A program made the translations under genes and the position numbers. A stretch of DNA of 32,424 nt from a virus: positions 1-32,424 of the IMG/VR virus record IMGVR_UViG_3300033145_000152. One strand, written 5' to 3'. The stretch's first letter is position 1. The number at the start of each line of letters is the position of its first letter. Shown piece by piece: positions 1,571 to 30,548 of the stretch. The notes under the pieces were generated by a model. It had not been told where the DNA came from. It ran no database searches and worked only from the letters and a program-made list of their open reading frames with translations.

Positions 1571-4500
1571 CTATTTATAGCCGTTTTCAGCAAGGTACTC
1601 TTTGAGTTGTGTATAGGTTCGCCGCACACCCTCTTGGTCTTTGTCGCTATTGAGTTTTTTAATCCTTTTGAAAGCATGGCCTATCTCAATGCGCATACGT
1701 TTGAGCTTGTTATATTTTGTCTTTTCCTCGCGCGTGGCCTTGTCCACCTTGACTTTATTGCCAAGAGCCTCGTAATCAAAATAGAATCTTTCTGTCTGGC
1801 GCCGGGGGTTCTCTGGCATTCTCAATACCAGATCGCCATATATCGGGATGTCGGCGGCTTCTTTGATTTCTCTGCCCGGCAGTTGTCGCCTGAACCCTCC
1901 GGTATATCCGTCGATCAAATAATCAACCTGTACCGGAGACAGCTTAATCCCAATTTTATTAAACCCTTGGGCCAATGCGTCGCCCAATTTAGATGTGTAT
2001 TCTTTTCTGCGTTCGGTCACGGGCAGATATTTGAGTGATTCGCCCTCGATGGGGTTGCCGAGATAGTTTTTATTGGTTCTCACGTCATCCAGTGGGCCAA
2101 GCAATGCTGGTGTAATGCCGGGGAATTGCGCCTTGACTTGGCTTATCCATCCCTTGATATAGTCATAATCCCGACTCTTTGCATAATCCATACCCGCCAT
2201 GATGCTCGACGCAAAGATAACGCCGAGATCGAACGGGATGGGGAACCTGTGAACCACATTATTAAATTCAAACCAGAAGTTTCCATACTTGTATGCAGGC
2301 GGGAGATTCTTGTACCAATCTTTATCCTTGTTTCTCCAATAATTTGTGGCGGCAAACATAGAAAGATACAAAATGCCCTTAACCACAAATCCAACAGGGT
2401 TCTCTTTGGCATATCGGTACAATTTGTTGGGAGATTGAATGGCCACATTATAGAAGGGTATGACCTGATTCAGCTTTTTCCCGGTAATTCCAGAGCGCGT
2501 GAAATTAACCGTTACGTCCTGCGCGTCATTAAATGCCGCGACATAGCAATCATCATCGGCCCAGTCGGGGTTGTCTTTTTTGTACTTCTTATATTGGCGT
2601 TCAAGCTCAACACTTCTCGGCGCAAGCTCGCCGACTGAAATAATATCCCTTATCGCCGCCACTGGATGGCGAACAATCCTTAATGCCTTCCCCTTTTTTC
2701 CGAGTTTTTCGTGCATCATATCATCGTATGTTGACATTGTTGCATTTCGGTCGAATCCAATCATGCCAGACATCGCACCACCGCCATGCTTAAAACGCCA
2801 TATCGGCGCGCCCTCTTTTGCTGTGATTTCCCCATATAACCCCTTGGCGGGGTCGAGCGGTGTTGCAAACTTGCTCTTTGAGAGAACGGCATACGTGAAC
2901 GCATCCCTGAAAACGTTTCTAACACCGAATGACGCCTTGATGCCCGTCGCCCCAATACGCAATAGGCGTGCTGGTTTACCAAATATAAAATCTATCATGG
3001 CCGGTAGCTTATACTGATCTATTCCCGTAAGGGCGCGGGCGAGATCGGGGTGTAGTTCGTACCATTCTTGCTTCCCATTGCGCCATATTGATACGATGTT
3101 GTCTTTGCCGGATACGGATTTCCCTTGCGTAAATACCGTCATCATTTTATCGAGATCAAGGTCGGAAAGGTCTATGTCTTTGGGAAGGCCAACATCTTCC
3201 AGCAATCCCTTGAAGTTCTGTATACTTGACAGCGCGATATTCTGCGCCTTCATTGGGGCCGGAACCTTGGTGATAAAACCACCTATGCCGTGTTCCTCCG
3301 ACAACTCAGCCCACAATGATGCAATACGTATTTTATGCGCCTTATTAATTAATTCCGTTGCCTGTTTGACAAGTGATTCTATCGGATTTATGACAGGACG
3401 CCCACTGCCCTTGATGCCCTTGATAGCCTGTCCTCTATTGACAATCCCGCCCGTTCCCTTGAACGCCCCAAGTTCATCGACAAATGCCCGCATAAATGGC
3501 AAATAAATAGGATTGAGTTTGCGCATGAGTGCCGATTCTTTTTCTCCGAGGCCGCCAGCACGGACAACCCAATCAAGCAGATGATTACTCCATTCGGTAA
3601 TATCGTCTATTACACCATCCCACGCCTCGTTAGAATATTTGTCAATGATAAATTGAGAATCCGCTATTTCAAACCCGCTTTCAATTCCTCGGCGCGCCAG
3701 AATCATAGCCCGCTTGGAAATCGCGTAGGAAATAAAACTTTTCATTTCGTTGTGTTTAATTGGAGCAAGAACTTCCAGCAATCCCTTCCCAACGGGATTA
3801 TGAAACTCATCAATGGCCTTGTCAAGAACAAATGTTCTGGCAATAGCACCCGACTTGGCCTTGAAATAGTCCATCATCTGAGAGGGGCTTTGTGTCGGGC
3901 GCAACTTCTTCCCGGTAATACCTTCTATTTCCTTTTCAATCTTTCGCACATCATAAAACTCATCGACGAATTGCTTGTTAAACCATCCCCATGCTTTAGT
4001 CGCCGATGCTTTAACACCCTTGACCTTGGTGTGTTCGCCACGGAAATCTATTTGCGCAAGCACTCTATTTTCCGCGCCTTGAGTTCTCCACGTTTCCATC
4101 TTGTCTTTGAGGCTGGATATTTTTTCAGCATACCCCGGAAGCGCGGGCAATAACTTGTTTGTAAAGACATCGTAAAACATCGGAGCCTTTGCCTTCGCCT
4201 CGTCAGTGGTCAGATAATAGCGCATGAACTCAGCGAATCCCTCGTTAGTGCGCCGTTGTTTCTGGTCATAATCGAGATCGGCCAGTTCTTTTGTTATGGC
4301 ACGCTTCTTCCCTGCCGGGAATAATTCATTGCGCCACCGCTTACCGCGCACTTTAGCTATTTTCTCGTCAATATGGTGGGCGAGTTCATGACCAAGGACG
4401 GACAATTCGCCCCACTTCCGCAAGCGAACGAGCGTTTTTTCAGGATAATACATGCCCGCTATCGTTTGTTTCCATCGGTGAGTTACTTTCCCACGGATAG

Positions 4501-7500
4501 GAACGCCAAACGCCTTTTCTGTTTGGGTGATGATGTCGGTTTTATTGATAGTCTTTTGGGTGGTCGGCTCTTCCGCAAGTTTTACATCCCACGCCCGTGC
4601 ATTCATGGGGTAGGCAAGTGCCTTGCCTGACTTTGGTGATGCGGGTTCCCCTACCGTTTCTTCGGTTTCGCCTTCTCCCGGCGTTTTTTTAGCAACCGGC
4701 TTATCACCTCGTCCAGCTTCTTCTCCCGCGCCGGGTCTATCTTCAAATAACGAGGCTTGTACGTCATTGATTACCTCCCCTCTTTCTGCGGCTTTTACCG
4801 CCTGCCTGAGTAGTTCTTCCCGCGTTGCCGTTGCCTCTCCGCCGAACATATCGGCCTGATTCGGATCCCCCGCAAGATGCACAAGCTCAATATAGTTATC
4901 CAGAATAATAGACATCTTTCGTGCGCTTCGCTTGTTCGCGTCAAACAGCGTTAATATCTCTTTCGCAAGTGGCGATATATCTTCACCGAACATAGACTGT
5001 TGACGGATATAATCATCGACGGGACGCCCGCTCGACCTCAGACCGGACAGTTTTTCCGCGGCCGCCGTTATGTCTTCGGAAATAGACAGGTCGTGTCGGG
5101 TGCCGTCTTGAATGGATTCGTCGAGCATGGCGATGCGGGGGGCTACATTGAGCATCGCCGTTGTGATGTTTTTGATGTTGCTGTCGGTGGATTCGGCAAG
5201 TCGCTCAATGGCACTCGGCTCGCCGTATGCTTTTGCAAACAGGGCGTTGCGGATTCGGTTCAGCCCGTCCTGAGTAATGTTCCCTGAGCGATCAATGTAC
5301 CGGCCAAGTTCCGTTGTCCCAATGACGCGAGAGAAGAACGCCCGGCGGAAGTCTGCGTTTGCAGTAGTGTTAATATCGCCAGCCAAGTTTGGGACAAACT
5401 GCTGTAATAGGTCACTTCCGACCTTACCAGCGTCGGCCTGCGCCTGTTCCCCCGCACTCATGGCTGCCGTTGCCTGTACGTTTGCCTCCTCGACAAACTT
5501 CTTAACATCGACATCCGACGTGCGCCTGCGGACAAGCATAGGATTCTTTACGCTTTCCACCTGTTCGCGGGTAAGCCCAAACTGCTCGGCGTTATCGGCG
5601 AGCCACGTCTTGTATGCTTCGGCAGCACCCTTTCCCCTTCCTTCATAGATGCGCTGTAGTGCAATTGTGCGTGCGTTGCCGGACTCGACAAAGCCCTGCT
5701 TGTTAATAATGGGTGCGCCTTCGGATGCCATCGGGTTTTCGCCAAGGCGTTCCGGCATGAGATTAGAGACAATCTTATTAATCTGAAACTCAGATGCGGC
5801 CTTTGTTCTGTCACGCGGCTGTAGTGATGCCGGATAGTTCTTATTCGGTTTTAGCGTCGTCTTGTGCGATGCTTCAATATCTTTTGCGCCAACAAGCGCA
5901 TAATCATAGGTGATAGCCGTCCCCGCCTCAGTCTTCGCCTTCCCGGTTTTCCCCGTAGCGACGGGCGTAATGTCGGGGCGCACCGTCTCTTGTTCCTGCG
6001 ACAACTGCCGGGCTATCTGTCGAGCCCTCTTGATGGGTTGACGTTTCTTAATGACATTCCCGTCTTTGTCAACGATGTTGACGCTTCCGGTCTTTGCACC
6101 GGTCGGGACGAGAGAATACGGGCCAATGGTTTCTGTCTTAGGTGCGGGTGCGGGTTTGGGTGTAGCTTCCGTTTTTGCGCCCTGCTCTTTCGCATCATAG
6201 ACGGCAACCTTGAACGAGTTACGCGCATCCTGCGGAGAAGCGAATACCTCGCCGGGGAATACTTCGTTTTCCGTGCCACGGAAGAATAGCTTCCATTTCC
6301 CGTCGGGCTGTTTTTTTGCCCCAACTTGCCCAGCAGGAGTATTCGCCGTTACTCGCCCTGCATCTATCGCGTCTTGGATGTATCCTTTCCCGGCTGGAAC
6401 TGCTCCCGGCACAGTCGGCTTCACCTGCTCCGCGAGTTCAGGATAGTCGTCCATCACTTCCTTCGGGACGGGCTTGTTTTCGGCAATGGCCTGTTTGACA
6501 ACAAATTTCCTTGTTCCTTCGTATGGGTTTTCGTTAATTTCTTTGGTAAAATTAGCCTTCCCTACGCGTTTAATGTATGCTTTTATGGCATCATTCATTT
6601 TATCTGCCTGATCCCACGCCGGTTCGCTTGGCATATATCCAAAACCACGCGATCCCTTGACTAACTCATCATACTCTTCCCTCGTCATCTCCCACGGCTC
6701 TTTAACCTTGCCCTGAGCCGGCTCTTTCACGTCAGGAGCGACGATCTCGCCTTGAGGCGGGGTAGTAGTCACTTCGGGAGCGGGGGGCGTTACGGGCACT
6801 TTATCCTTGGCCGATGTGGGGCGCGGTTCATCCTCAATGTCGTACAGTAATGCCGCTATATCATCCTGAATGATGGGGGAGCCCTTGATTGCGGCGTTAA
6901 TCGTCTTTTGGTTTTTTAATTTCTCGCTAAACAGGCGATAATTCCCAACCTCGTAGTAAAGATCATTGCCAATCTTAATTAAATCGGCGTTGTTTTGAAT
7001 GTCAGCCTGATTAAACAACTCGGTGTTCGGATAATGATTTGCGTATCTGAACTGAGTAAATCTATCTCCATAATGGACATCAAAATACTTGCTTCCAGTC
7101 CACGCACCTTCCCATCTATCAATTTCAACGAGAGACGGGTCTACCGGTTTTTGTTTCGGCGTTTTTGTCACCACTTGTTCGGAAGTGGGAACAACTTGTT
7201 CGGGAATCGGCGCTTCGGGTATGATGGGTTTCGGTTGTGGTTGTTCGGTCGGTTCCACGGTCGGCGGTTGCGGTGTTATCTGCGCGTCCACATCAACCGC
7301 GCCGGTTCCCCCCCCGCCATCTCCGGCGTCGGGTTGCGATGGTATCACACCACCGAGTATTCCGCCGGTCACAAGTCCACCGTAGAAGGAATTGACTATC
7401 CGCTCACCCGCACCCTCCATTGCGTCCTTGTCGTACCCAAGCTCGCCGAGAATCGAAGTGATTTCCTGCGCCGATTCGGTTGTGCCTTCTGTCGGAGCCG

Positions 7501-8812
7501 CAAGTAGTGCTTTGACAACCCGGCGCTTTGCAAACTTCCCAAGTGGACCTTTACCAAGCAAGAGGTCGATACCAACTCTCTCAAACGCTGCGTTGATAGC
7601 ACCAACGGCTATCGGAATCCCTCTCCTTTGCAGGGGCGAGAGTGTTTTTCCTGTTTTCTGCTCATACTCATCAATGGCTTCTTTCGAGCTTCCACCCTCC
7701 ACGCCCATCATAAGGGCGGTTCCGAGTACGGGATTGATTGACGTTGCTGCCATGAACGTTCCCGTAAGTGGCGCATTCTCCCAGAAAGCATTCCATATCC
7801 GCTCAGGTTGCACCCATTCGGCAAGTCCTTTTGGCGCTCTCGCCATTTCCGGGTCAGGCTCCGGCACAGGCGTCTCCATTATTTTCTTTTTCCACGCATC
7901 GGCGGCCTGAGTAAATTCCTTTTCGGAGGGTACTGCCAATAGATTATACGCGCCATACGGGCCGGTTGCTATCCGAGGCTTCGACAGAAATTCCTTTTTC
8001 TTGCCTTCTGGCATTTCTATGTCCGGTGAAAATACGCCTCCGAATCTCACCACGTTACTCGCTGCAAGGGGGAGGTTCCGCCTGATTCCCCGTGTCGGTG
8101 CTTCAATTAATTTACGCCCGGATTTCTTTAACTGATTCTCTTTCATTCTTTGGTAATAATCAAGTGCTTCGCTTGGTCGCACATCCATTTCATTGGCGAG
8201 GGCAAGAACGTTCTGTATATCTCCATCGGAGACACTTGTCATGCGCTCCCTAAATTGCGCCGACAGCGGTATTCTTGTTGTTTTGGCTTTTCCTATTTCG
8301 GCATCTTGAGCAACATCGTATTTTGACAGAACGTCAAGGGGTGGTGGTGTCGGTTGCTGGTCAATGTCCGGCATCCCCGACGGCGGCAATGTTTTCCGTG
8401 ACGGGACAGATGCTGGCATTAAATCAACGTCTGTGGTGCTGGCTGGTGCAACTACAGGTGAGGGCATAATAGATGCTTGCGTTGGTTTAATTATTCCCGG
8501 CGCATAATCTCGTATTGGGATGTCAAGAGATGGTCTGTCTGGAGCTACCGGATGGCGTATAAGGCGCTCCGTATCTATAGGCTTGTATACATCGCCAACT
8601 CCCGGTGCCTGCTCCTCAAATAGCCTGTCCCAGTTGTTTTGTGGTTCTGGCGGTTTCGCTGCTACGGGTGCCGGTTTACTTCGGGCAAAGTCGTCAAGTA
8701 CTTCTTGACGCACCCGCTCTGCCCGTCGCCTTGCGTTCCTCAACGGTCGCTCGCGTTTGAGCCTGCCTAATACTGGATCATCTGAAAGACTCTCGCCCGG
8801 ATTTATATTCAT
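1571..8812 (-). CDS. Giant polyvalent internal virion (ejection) protein with ddrB-like ParB, zincin metallopeptidase and LPD38-like regions
   Basis: This 2413-residue protein is encoded after two smaller internal virion proteins, the position of T7 gp16-type ejection proteins. Visible parts in order: a basic Arg-rich N-terminus; a Gly/Ala-rich hydrophobic region around residues 340-495 with an EGTTESAQEI motif common in phage internal proteins; Pro/Gln-rich linkers; a ddrB-like ParB domain at about 960-1115 (LQPRDR, NPMASEGAPI, ESGNARTIALQR, MSAGEQAQADAG); a zincin metallopeptidase with HELAHH near 1476 and a probable third ligand in NEGFAE near 1522; and a C-terminal part from about 1640 resembling large polyvalent-protein-associated domain LPD38 (RIGATGIKASFGVRNVFRD near 1950). 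In this family such proteins enter the host with the DNA. Start ATG overlaps the upstream stop (TAATG). The peptidase substrate is unknown. Confidence 0.85.
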   Translation of the reverse strand: MNINPGESLSDDPVLGRLKRERPLRNARRRAERVRQEVLDDFARSKPAPVAAKPPEPQNNWDRLFEEQAPGVGDVYKPIDTERLIRHPVAPDRPSLDIPIRDYAPGIIKPTQASIMPSPVVAPASTTDVDLMPASVPSRKTLPPSGMPDIDQQPTPPPLDVLSKYDVAQDAEIGKAKTTRIPLSAQFRERMTSVSDGDIQNVLALANEMDVRPSEALDYYQRMKENQLKKSGRKLIEAPTRGIRRNLPLAASNVVRFGGVFSPDIEMPEGKKKEFLSKPRIATGPYGAYNLLAVPSEKEFTQAADAWKKKIMETPVPEPDPEMARAPKGLAEWVQPERIWNAFWENAPLTGTFMAATSINPVLGTALMMGVEGGSSKEAIDEYEQKTGKTLSPLQRRGIPIAVGAINAAFERVGIDLLLGKGPLGKFAKRRVVKALLAAPTEGTTESAQEITSILGELGYDKDAMEGAGERIVNSFYGGLVTGGILGGVIPSQPDAGDGGGGTGAVDVDAQITPQPPTVEPTEQPQPKPIIPEAPIPEQVVPTSEQVVTKTPKQKPVDPSLVEIDRWEGAWTGSKYFDVHYGDRFTQFRYANHYPNTELFNQADIQNNADLIKIGNDLYYEVGNYRLFSEKLKNQKTINAAIKGSPIIQDDIAALLYDIEDEPRPTSAKDKVPVTPPAPEVTTTPPQGEIVAPDVKEPAQGKVKEPWEMTREEYDELVKGSRGFGYMPSEPAWDQADKMNDAIKAYIKRVGKANFTKEINENPYEGTRKFVVKQAIAENKPVPKEVMDDYPELAEQVKPTVPGAVPAGKGYIQDAIDAGRVTANTPAGQVGAKKQPDGKWKLFFRGTENEVFPGEVFASPQDARNSFKVAVYDAKEQGAKTEATPKPAPAPKTETIGPYSLVPTGAKTGSVNIVDKDGNVIKKRQPIKRARQIARQLSQEQETVRPDITPVATGKTGKAKTEAGTAITYDYALVGAKDIEASHKTTLKPNKNYPASLQPRDRTKAASEFQINKIVSNLMPERLGENPMASEGAPIINKQGFVESGNARTIALQRIYEGRGKGAAEAYKTWLADNAEQFGLTREQVESVKNPMLVRRRTSDVDVKKFVEEANVQATAAMSAGEQAQADAGKVGSDLLQQFVPNLAGDINTTANADFRRAFFSRVIGTTELGRYIDRSGNITQDGLNRIRNALFAKAYGEPSAIERLAESTDSNIKNITTAMLNVAPRIAMLDESIQDGTRHDLSISEDITAAAEKLSGLRSSGRPVDDYIRQQSMFGEDISPLAKEILTLFDANKRSARKMSIILDNYIELVHLAGDPNQADMFGGEATATREELLRQAVKAAERGEVINDVQASLFEDRPGAGEEAGRGDKPVAKKTPGEGETEETVGEPASPKSGKALAYPMNARAWDVKLAEEPTTQKTINKTDIITQTEKAFGVPIRGKVTHRWKQTIAGMYYPEKTLVRLRKWGELSVLGHELAHHIDEKIAKVRGKRWRNELFPAGKKRAITKELADLDYDQKQRRTNEGFAEFMRYYLTTDEAKAKAPMFYDVFTNKLLPALPGYAEKISSLKDKMETWRTQGAENRVLAQIDFRGEHTKVKGVKASATKAWGWFNKQFVDEFYDVRKIEKEIEGITGKKLRPTQSPSQMMDYFKAKSGAIARTFVLDKAIDEFHNPVGKGLLEVLAPIKHNEMKSFISYAISKRAMILARRGIESGFEIADSQFIIDKYSNEAWDGVIDDITEWSNHLLDWVVRAGGLGEKESALMRKLNPIYLPFMRAFVDELGAFKGTGGIVNRGQAIKGIKGSGRPVINPIESLVKQATELINKAHKIRIASLWAELSEEHGIGGFITKVPAPMKAQNIALSSIQNFKGLLEDVGLPKDIDLSDLDLDKMMTVFTQGKSVSGKDNIVSIWRNGKQEWYELHPDLARALTGIDQYKLPAMIDFIFGKPARLLRIGATGIKASFGVRNVFRDAFTYAVLSKSKFATPLDPAKGLYGEITAKEGAPIWRFKHGGGAMSGMIGFDRNATMSTYDDMMHEKLGKKGKALRIVRHPVAAIRDIISVGELAPRSVELERQYKKYKKDNPDWADDDCYVAAFNDAQDVTVNFTRSGITGKKLNQVIPFYNVAIQSPNKLYRYAKENPVGFVVKGILYLSMFAATNYWRNKDKDWYKNLPPAYKYGNFWFEFNNVVHRFPIPFDLGVIFASSIMAGMDYAKSRDYDYIKGWISQVKAQFPGITPALLGPLDDVRTNKNYLGNPIEGESLKYLPVTERRKEYTSKLGDALAQGFNKIGIKLSPVQVDYLIDGYTGGFRRQLPGREIKEAADIPIYGDLVLRMPENPRRQTERFYFDYEALGNKVKVDKATREEKTKYNKLKRMRIEIGHAFKRIKKLNSDKDQEGVRRTYTQLKEYLAENGYK

Positions 8813-27466: not shown

Positions 27467-30027
27467 TCATACCCCCATCCATGACTGTGCGCTCTTTGGT
27501 ATGTGCGGGATGCGGATAGTGATAGGCTCGCTCATCTTGTCCCGCCCGTATACGTGATGATACAGAGATGCCGTTTGATACCCGTCAGCACCGTGAGAAC
27601 TCCAGTCATGCACCGGATGAGAGCCGTATATTTTGTATTTTTCGTTGTATTCCTTCCGGTACGACTTGAGAGCGCTCAATCCGTCCTTGCATCCGTCTGC
27701 ATCAAACCACGACCGGCCAAGAAACTGGCGTGAAGCCTCGATACCGTCTTCCTTTTTTTTGACCCTCGGCACCGTCTCGCAGGTGATACCAAGCTCGGAA
27801 AGAAACTCTTTAGTTGTTTTCCCTGTCTGTAGTTGCCTGTTGTTACCATCGTGCGGGAGAACATGAACCCCGAACGTTAGACGCTTGCTGTCCCGCCAAT
27901 CTTTGAGGTAGTTGGCATAGTGAACCAGCCCTTCACCCGAGTTGGAGTAGTAGTTGACGAAATGCACCTCACGGCCGACCGTCTGAGCGAACCATACCGT
28001 TGTTGAATCATCAATACCCAAGTCCCAATACGTGTTGACCGGTATATTGGGCTCTATCGGCACCCGTCCGATGCGACCATCACGCTCGGCCGCCATGAGT
28101 TCGTTTGCGAAGTAAGCCCCCGGCACCGGTACGGCCCAGCTACAGTAGAACTCTTGCCGGATCATCTCCTCGCTCATGCCGTCTTTGCGCTCGCGCTCGA
28201 TTGCTTCGAGGCTGATAGCGTGGGTGTCATCGACCGTCAACGTCTCGGTGAACCACTCAGGATTGTCCTTTACACGCTGATATAGGTCGTATGCGTGGTT
28301 CTCTCCGCGCGGTGTATTGTGGCTAATCAGCCCGTTGCTGAAAAAGGAATGGGTGTCGGGAATAACGAAATCGTATACTTTCCCGCGTGTATGCTCTATA
28401 CTTGCGATAGTATCATAATAATAATTATCTTCTACGATGCCCCGTATATACGGATCGTCCTTCTTTTCGAGAAGACGGCGCAGAGTCCGGTATGTGACGG
28501 GTGTATGGCGCTTCAAATCGGTTTCATTCATTCCCCTTATGTAATTATTAAGGCGTTTCCTTGGAACGGTAACCGTATCTCCCCACCAATCACGGCACCG
28601 CTTCGGCAAAACATTTCTATGCGCCTGTTTTCGCGTGAGTCTAAAGCCTATCTGTGAATAGAATAGCTCCGCATTATACCCGTCGAAACTTAAACGCCAC
28701 GCCACGGAAGATACCTTGACGCGCTTCGTCGGCTTCGTTTTGTGCTTTGTTTTCTTGGAAATTATGCCGTAGTTGAGAAGCAACACTTGAAGGTCAGTAA
28801 TTAGGGCTTCTGATACAGAATCGCAGTGTATCCATCCCTTCTTGTCGTGACTTGACCCGTCACCATCAAAATACCCAGACAGAAACGCGGAGATATATTT
28901 CTTCGGCATCCTCATAAGTCTATCGGGGATTCGTTTGTTTTTTGCGCCTCGTTTAATGCCAAACCAGTCAATAAACGAGACTAACCGCTTGTTATGCCTA
29001 CGACTATGGCAGTCATCTCTATGGGCAAACTCATATGTGTTTTTAAGGAAATCCCTTATTTCCGCGTCCTGATTTGATATTGTTACGGTGCCGCTATTGT
29101 CCCAATTGCCTTCAGCTAATATCAACCCCATGAGATACATTAAATCCTCATTGAGGCCGAATCCATTAAATGGGTGCTTGCTTTTCCGTATTTTTGGGGG
29201 AGTCCATCCGTGGAGGTTGTCACATCCCCACACCTGCTGGTTGCGCTGTATCACAACAGGATCGCCCACTTTATGCGCATCCAGCCTGCGCCACTCTTCG
29301 CCCGTCCATATAGGGTGATTCGGGGTGCCCTCTATCACATAACCCCTTGACGTTGTTAACTTTACGAGTTCTTTAGCGCCACCATTATAAAAACTTGTTG
29401 CCCGGTGGAATCCATTTTTTCCGTAAACATCCGTCGACACGTCTGTAAAACGCTGATCTTCATTGTGGGGCATCCGCCCAATGCGTTCTATTCCGTTCCG
29501 GGTCATAACCAAGGTGTCTTTTTTAACGCAACAATTAAATGCCGCCCAGCCGTCGTTTTCCGCGAGGATCGGCCTCATGTACTCCCATGCCGCCGGATTT
29601 TGGAGGCTGTACTCGGAGAAGACGCACCCACGGGGATTGGTGCCAACGACGCTATCAATGTTATCGGTACCGATGACTTGAAAGATTGAACCGTTGACAA
29701 GCGTGATCTTCATCTCGGCTTCGTTTGGCTTCTTCGCCCTGATGGCTCCGGGGATATGGTCGAGAAACTTGAATCCGTCCCGGTCGAGGCCATCCCAGAG
29801 AATCTTACGTCCCTGAGAATACGTGGGAAAGAAATAGTAGTATATGCCGACCGTCTTCATCGCCTCTTTGGCGACCACGTTGATATAGCTCTTATCTTTC
29901 CGCTGCGCCGGTGCCATACCGTGAACATACGCTTGAACCCGTCGGCTATCGCGTTGTACAGCGGTATCTGATACGGTCTTGGCGTGTAGTTGTGCGGGAT
30001 CGTGACCTGTTGGCGCGGGCGTCTCAT
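27467..30027 (-). CDS. terL: Large terminase subunit, intein-containing, frameshifted in Walker A
   Basis: The true start is ATG 30027, overlapping the small-terminase stop (ATGA). That frame gives an N-terminus with PHNYTPRPYQIPLYNAIADG and WHRRSGK, a Walker A motif, then runs out of frame and stops at TGA 29857. The frame from 29896 continues D-K-SYINVVAKEAM, so one base is missing, or a -1 slip occurs, at GGAAAG (29896-29901). Further motifs: YYYFFPTYSQGRKILWDGLD; Walker B-like GCVFSEYSLQNPAAW; TPRGENHAYDLY (motif III); nuclease acids in YWDLGIDDSTTVWFA, HVLPHDGNNR and HDWSSHGADGY. An intein splits the protein directly before TPRG. The spliced, frame-corrected protein would have 448 residues, a normal size. 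It cuts and pumps DNA into the head. Without correction there is no complete ATPase. Confidence 0.85.
28316..29530 (-). mobile_element. Intein with LAGLIDADG homing endonuclease, in terL
   Basis: The 405-residue insert begins with Cys1 (CVKKDTLVMT, block A) and ends HN before a Thr +1 residue. Block B has T-P-N-H at intein residues 69-72. Two LAGLIDADG helices are present: YLMGLILAEGN near 132-142 and FLSGYFDGDGS near 216-226, so the endonuclease looks intact with its Glu/Asp ends. Blocks F and G are VYDFVIPDTHSFFSNG and LISHN. The residue before the insert is a Cys. All expected splicing residues are present, so splicing is predicted. The DNA is AT-richer than the flanking extein: two counted lines are 42% and 38% GC against 68% and 57% in the extein, consistent with horizontal arrival. 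Confidence 0.9.
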
Positions 30028-30548
30028 TCCATACCGTCCCTAGCCTCGTACTTGTCGCGGATCACAACCTTTACGTCGCGCTGTCGGTTGTCCTTCTCAA
30101 ATATCCCGAAGTGCTTGCCGAGCAGGTCGAGGGCACCCTTCTTGTCTGCCAGCTTGATCCTCGTCTTTTTCACCTCACGAGCGTTCCGGCCCTTCCCCTC
30201 GACGTACTCATCAACCGTGATCTCGCTGATCGCCGCCGCCTGCTCTCGCGTGAGCCTCGACAGGTCAACAAAAGCGTCACCGTTATCGTTAAGTTCAATA
30301 TAATCCTGCATGTTAAGAAAGCCTATCTTTGCCAGCTCCTCAACAACTCTATCGGCAGTGACTTGTGTTCTCGCTGACTGTTCGGCAACAGCTTTCTTGA
30401 TTGCGGCAGAGATTACAAGTTTCCTTAAGTTCTGCTCACCGATTTGACCGGCCGTTTTCTCCGAGTAGCCAGCGCGGATCGCGGCTTGCGTCGCATTCTT
30501 GTCGATGAGATATTCCTCGACGAATCTTTTTTGTTTGGGGGTCATCAT
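30024..30548 (-). CDS. terS: Small terminase subunit (Terminase_2 family)
   Basis: The product has 174 residues. The N-terminus (TPKQKRFVEEYLIDKNATQA then AIRAGYSEKTAGQIG) is the helix-turn-helix DNA-binding part typical of this terminase family. A helical oligomerisation part follows, then a beta C-terminus (TRIKLADKKGALDLLGKHFG, VKVVIRDKYE). AAGGTG lies 11 bases before the first of two adjacent ATG codons (30548 and 30545); the first is used here. Its stop overlaps the terL start. It recognises the packaging site and recruits the large subunit. It is the first gene of the leftward transcript. Confidence 0.9.
   Translation of the reverse strand: MMTPKQKRFVEEYLIDKNATQAAIRAGYSEKTAGQIGEQNLRKLVISAAIKKAVAEQSARTQVTADRVVEELAKIGFLNMQDYIELNDNGDAFVDLSRLTREQAAAISEITVDEYVEGKGRNAREVKKTRIKLADKKGALDLLGKHFGIFEKDNRQRDVKVVIRDKYEARDGME

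Follow-up and report, generated by a model that had tools for sequence, protein, structure and literature searches.

Introduction

Several described systems bear on a phage gene that appears to change frame within its coding sequence. The tetramer A_AAG is the most shift-prone of its kind in E. coli given a strong stimulator, and Z_ZZN tetramers require such a stimulator in that organism (PMC4066793). Productive or incidental shifting on CGA_AAG has been reviewed for IS1222 and B. subtilis cdd, and the same review covers the terminase of Streptomyces phage Hau3, for which translational bypassing is likely (PMC5009743). Large terminase subunits (TerL) are also sites of intein insertion; mycobacteriophage TerL inteins in the ATPase domain are well described, one class being located in the C-motif at site TerL6-f (PMC5050341). 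Sporadic frame-broken genes (singleton indels) are likewise known from assembled genomes, and a 2013 survey of bacterial genomes expected singleton frame breaks of this category to be sequencing errors, not genuine indels (PMC3711429).

The window analyzed here, which is the whole stretch of 32,424 bases, is a partial, linear virus record whose TerL gene resembles each of these systems in part. As in the IS1222 transposase and B. subtilis cdd, an A_AAG tetramer stands at the change of frame; unlike in those genes, it is preceded by GGA instead of CGA, and it is accompanied by neither a conserved transition nor a stimulator of the published type. Hau3 shares with the window a terminase gene with possibly discontinuous reading, whereas Hau3, for which bypassing tied to a UUA codon is discussed, has a prophage relative and the window shows a one-base loss that no relative shares.

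The Terminase Locus

No end repeats were found in the window and phage genes run off its left end; the contig is a fragment. Its minus strand carries a podovirus-like module of small terminase, TerL, P22-like portal (Pfam PF16510), and P22-like coat protein (Pfam PF11651). The small terminase gene (30024-30548, minus strand; Pfam PF03592 Terminase_2, 4.3e-40; phrog_51) is intact and lies directly upstream of TerL, the start of which overlaps the small-terminase stop. Elsewhere in the window, a single ORF of 2413 codons (1571-8812) matches several very large unknown PHROG families (phrog_5143, 9.6e-90).

TerL occupies two frames of the minus strand. The ORF at 29857-30027 begins at ATG 30027, encodes the TerL N-terminus as far as Walker A (WHRRSGK), and then continues out of frame to a TGA stop at 29859-29857, its translation running as MRRPRQQVTIPHNYTPRPYQIPLYNAIADGFKRMFTVWHRRSGK and then IRAISTWSPKRR up to the stop. 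The remainder of TerL (27467-29896, minus strand), comprising ATPase, intein, and nuclease, lies in the -1 frame as 809 open codons, begins from GAT 29896 with DKSYINVVAKEAMK, and matches 445 phage records by tblastn, some of them via the intein alone. Within this part, an 8-A run at 27753-27760 holds the classical slippery heptamer A_AAA_AAG in register with TerL, at a point where the gene requires no change of frame.

Alignment with 12 annotated phage TerLs shows the two pieces meeting precisely at HRRxGKD, the Walker A motif, which is therefore one base short; at 29894-29901 (minus strand) the window has GGAAAGAT, which includes the tetramer A_AAG, where relatives have GGN AAR GAY. The translations and this alignment thereby agree with the initial annotation, which had TerL starting from ATG 30027, resuming from GAT 29896, and broken at Walker A. 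As both halves are homologous to TerL, with 40-55% identity to phage TerLs over the ATPase and nuclease parts, the frame change is genuinely present in the record and lies well outside what chance would give. The Walker A P-loop, continuous in TerL, is interrupted by it. When read through and stripped of the intein, the protein matches no Pfam family and gives a weak match to a solved terminase, and its placement in the TerL family consequently rests on phage homologues.

The proposed insertion of an A is one possible repair of the frame, though not a unique one, as GGA AAG GAT fits equally well. Among intact relatives, GGA AAA GAT occurs in 4/91 and GGA AAG GAT in 3/91, and the nearest relative found (L186; IMGVR_UViG_3300029442_000092), the site of which is intact, has GGG AAA GAT. 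Since GGAAAGAT can be derived from GGA AAA GAT or from GGA AAG GAT, the missing base may have belonged to the A-run or have been a G.

The claim of an intein in TerL was borne out by Pfam matches to splicing (PF14890 Intein_splicing, 1.5e-11) and LAGLIDADG (PF14528 LAGLIDADG_3, 2.5e-16) domains. With boundaries drawn from the 12-TerL alignment, the LAGLIDADG intein comprises 405 aa (28316-29530, minus strand) between ...AAFNC and TPRG, in the coupling/C-motif region of the ATPase, and combines a splicing domain and a DOD endonuclease with an N-terminal Cys, a C-terminal His-Asn, and a +1 residue of the Ser/Thr/Cys class (C...HN followed by T). It is of a known kind. Like the mycobacteriophage TerL inteins, it is situated in the ATPase domain at a conserved motif, just before TPRG; it differs in that its host phage is distant, its splicing is predicted, and the equivalence of the sites is by motif only. 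An in-frame intein-like insert was also observed in the TerL locus of L186 (651-2927), after GTDNID and before SIVGTNP, a site different from that of the window's intein (TPRG).

Relatives at the Walker A Site

The TerL comparison set consisted of 12 annotated phages, the best 80 viral contigs by tblastn, and 80 bacterial-genome loci. A single frame passes through Walker A in every locus that covers the site, namely 91/91 in the first set (12 annotated phages and 79 viral contigs) and 78/78 among the bacterial-genome loci, such that 0/91 and 0/78 loci are broken at Walker A. One genome locus without the N-terminal part (L269) was set aside, no TerL start being present in any upstream frame, and L252 begins at a contig edge.

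Because tblastn ranking favors continuous genes, which qualifies the result for the 80 best viral loci, two pattern scans were also made, from which the window itself was apparently excluded. The intact-site pattern, TGGCAYMGNMGNDSNGGNAARGAYAARWS, had at least 120 matches in viral contigs, these loci being by definition selected for an intact site, and the pattern with the identical one-base loss had 0 matches elsewhere in 2.9 million viral contigs. This zero count is the least biased evidence, followed, less strictly, by the 78 genome loci. A second copy of the break site is likewise absent from the record itself, and no close relative emerged when viral contigs were scanned with single proteins, either the downstream part of TerL or the portal protein. 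Within the collections searched, the Walker A frame change thus appears unique to this record. The initial annotation had suggested a comparison with related phages, and the intact frame kept by all relatives that cover the site speaks against a programmed -1 event.

TerL of the nearest relative, L186, is 73% identical to that of the window before residue 125 and 55% identical after it. Synonymous change between the two is saturated in both halves, and nonsynonymous change amounts to 22% before the break and 25% after it, so selection was acting on both halves, and the gene functioned as a single unit, up to the very recent past. This pattern would fit a record error, a fresh lesion, or a working frameshift alike and does not discriminate among them.

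Origin of the Frame Change

The analysis shows directly that the frame is broken, that no other record in the collections searched shares the break, that the relatives read continuously, and that known stimulators are absent; together these points argue strongly for an ordinary phage TerL from which a single base has been lost in the Gly-Lys-Asp codons of Walker A, in this record alone. We are highly confident that the loss is unique and not programmed and that it reflects an error or minor variant of the metagenomic contig as assembled or, with somewhat lower likelihood, a real lesion that a defective phage or prophage acquired very recently. Of the three options originally offered, a defective phage and a mis-sequenced A-run are jointly favored over a programmed -1 frameshift. 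Translation of the sequence as written would give a 56-residue dead-end peptide and a downstream part without a P-loop, so a phage with this exact sequence should not package DNA alone, and the broken TerL is probably non-functional.

Comparable breaks provide a base rate for such losses. Among the matches listed, TerL is broken elsewhere in 2/120 intact-site viral loci, about 12 codons past GKD in L193 (IMGVR_UViG_3300018425_000222) and near residue 222 in L211 (IMGVR_UViG_3300002484_000380). As in the window, one TerL is divided between two frames, the remainder is intact, and no relative was seen broken at the same place; the window differs in that its break falls inside Walker A. Scattered TerL breaks in approximately 1-2% of such records form the pattern of sporadic lesions or sequence errors. 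The window illustrates how the loss of one base in a metagenomic phage record can mimic recoding.

Counting against a unique, non-programmed loss are the in-frame homopolymer runs of the window, the shift-proneness of A_AAG, and the fact that no near-identical relative was found. The 8-A run within TerL stays in frame, as do runs of 7-8 G or A (7308-7315, 6311-6317, and 4684-4690) in the 2413-aa ORF. These runs weigh against a simple homopolymer error, given that they are where homopolymer-prone sequencing should fail first, and they leave room for a real lesion, a minor variant, or a consensus error confined to this one site.

A programmed -1 ribosomal frameshift on A_AAG, confined to this lineage and yielding full-length TerL from some rounds of translation, is very unlikely. 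The Lys tRNA would slip from AAG to AAA to give G-K-D-K, and intein splicing would be needed as well. The tetramer does lie exactly at the break, the slip would yield the correct protein, both halves of TerL are open and conserved, and precedents can be cited in the CGA_AAG shifting of IS1222 and B. subtilis cdd and in the likely bypassing of the Hau3 terminase (PMC5009743). Nevertheless, the slippery motif (GGA AAG) is a tetramer only and is itself the residue of one base lost from GGA-AAR-GAY; it also occurs in 6/91 intact relatives as a by-product of the Gly-Lys codons GGA-AAR. As A_AAG comes free with these P-loop codons, its presence in Walker A is not independent evidence of frameshifting. 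Neither a relative with the frame transition nor a second record with the loss was found, and the strong stimulator needed in E. coli (PMC4066793) has no counterpart here: the 30 nt upstream contain no Shine-Dalgarno-like element (GAGG, GGAG, AGGA, GGNGG, or AGGKG; expected 6-17 nt upstream), and no candidate of 17-140 nt forms a qualifying stem that begins 4-10 nt downstream of the motif under the published rule of a G-C pair plus 3 Watson-Crick pairs. Folding is unremarkable, with MFE z-scores of -1.8 to 0.2 in a pseudoknot-free model, and the 0-frame product, at just 56 aa, ends shortly after the P-loop. Slightly less probable again is that TerL levels are set by such a lineage-specific shift and intein splicing acting in series; the earlier suggestion that terminase is gated twice, by frameshift and intein, falls together with the programmed frameshift. 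Were the shift programmed, it would mark a new place for phage recoding, at the ATP site of the packaging motor.

It is highly improbable that the gene is genuinely split, with a separate start at ATG 29917 (MAPAQRKDKSY...) giving a product that acts in trans or as a nuclease only. Such an ATG is available in the downstream frame (ORF 27467-29917), but no Shine-Dalgarno-like sequence stands ahead of it, the cut passes through the P-loop, which would leave both pieces without the ATP site, and no relative is split at Walker A. Transcriptional slippage that restores the missing base in some mRNA is barely credible, as the short A-run containing the break has three A's only, slippage being reported for runs exceeding roughly 7 A or 8 T (PMC3711429), and the 8-A run at 27753-27760 of the same gene sits where a shift is unwanted.

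Separately, two TerL relatives were observed to contain in-frame TGA codons, with 7 in L154 (IMGVR_UViG_3300033129_000615, 375-1625) and 17 in L197 (IMGVR_UViG_3300025162_000221, 6052-7131). Several of these codons occur at conserved glycines (DGGG, NGG), a pattern that would fit the reading of TGA as glycine (code 25), as in hosts of the Gracilibacteria/SR1 type.
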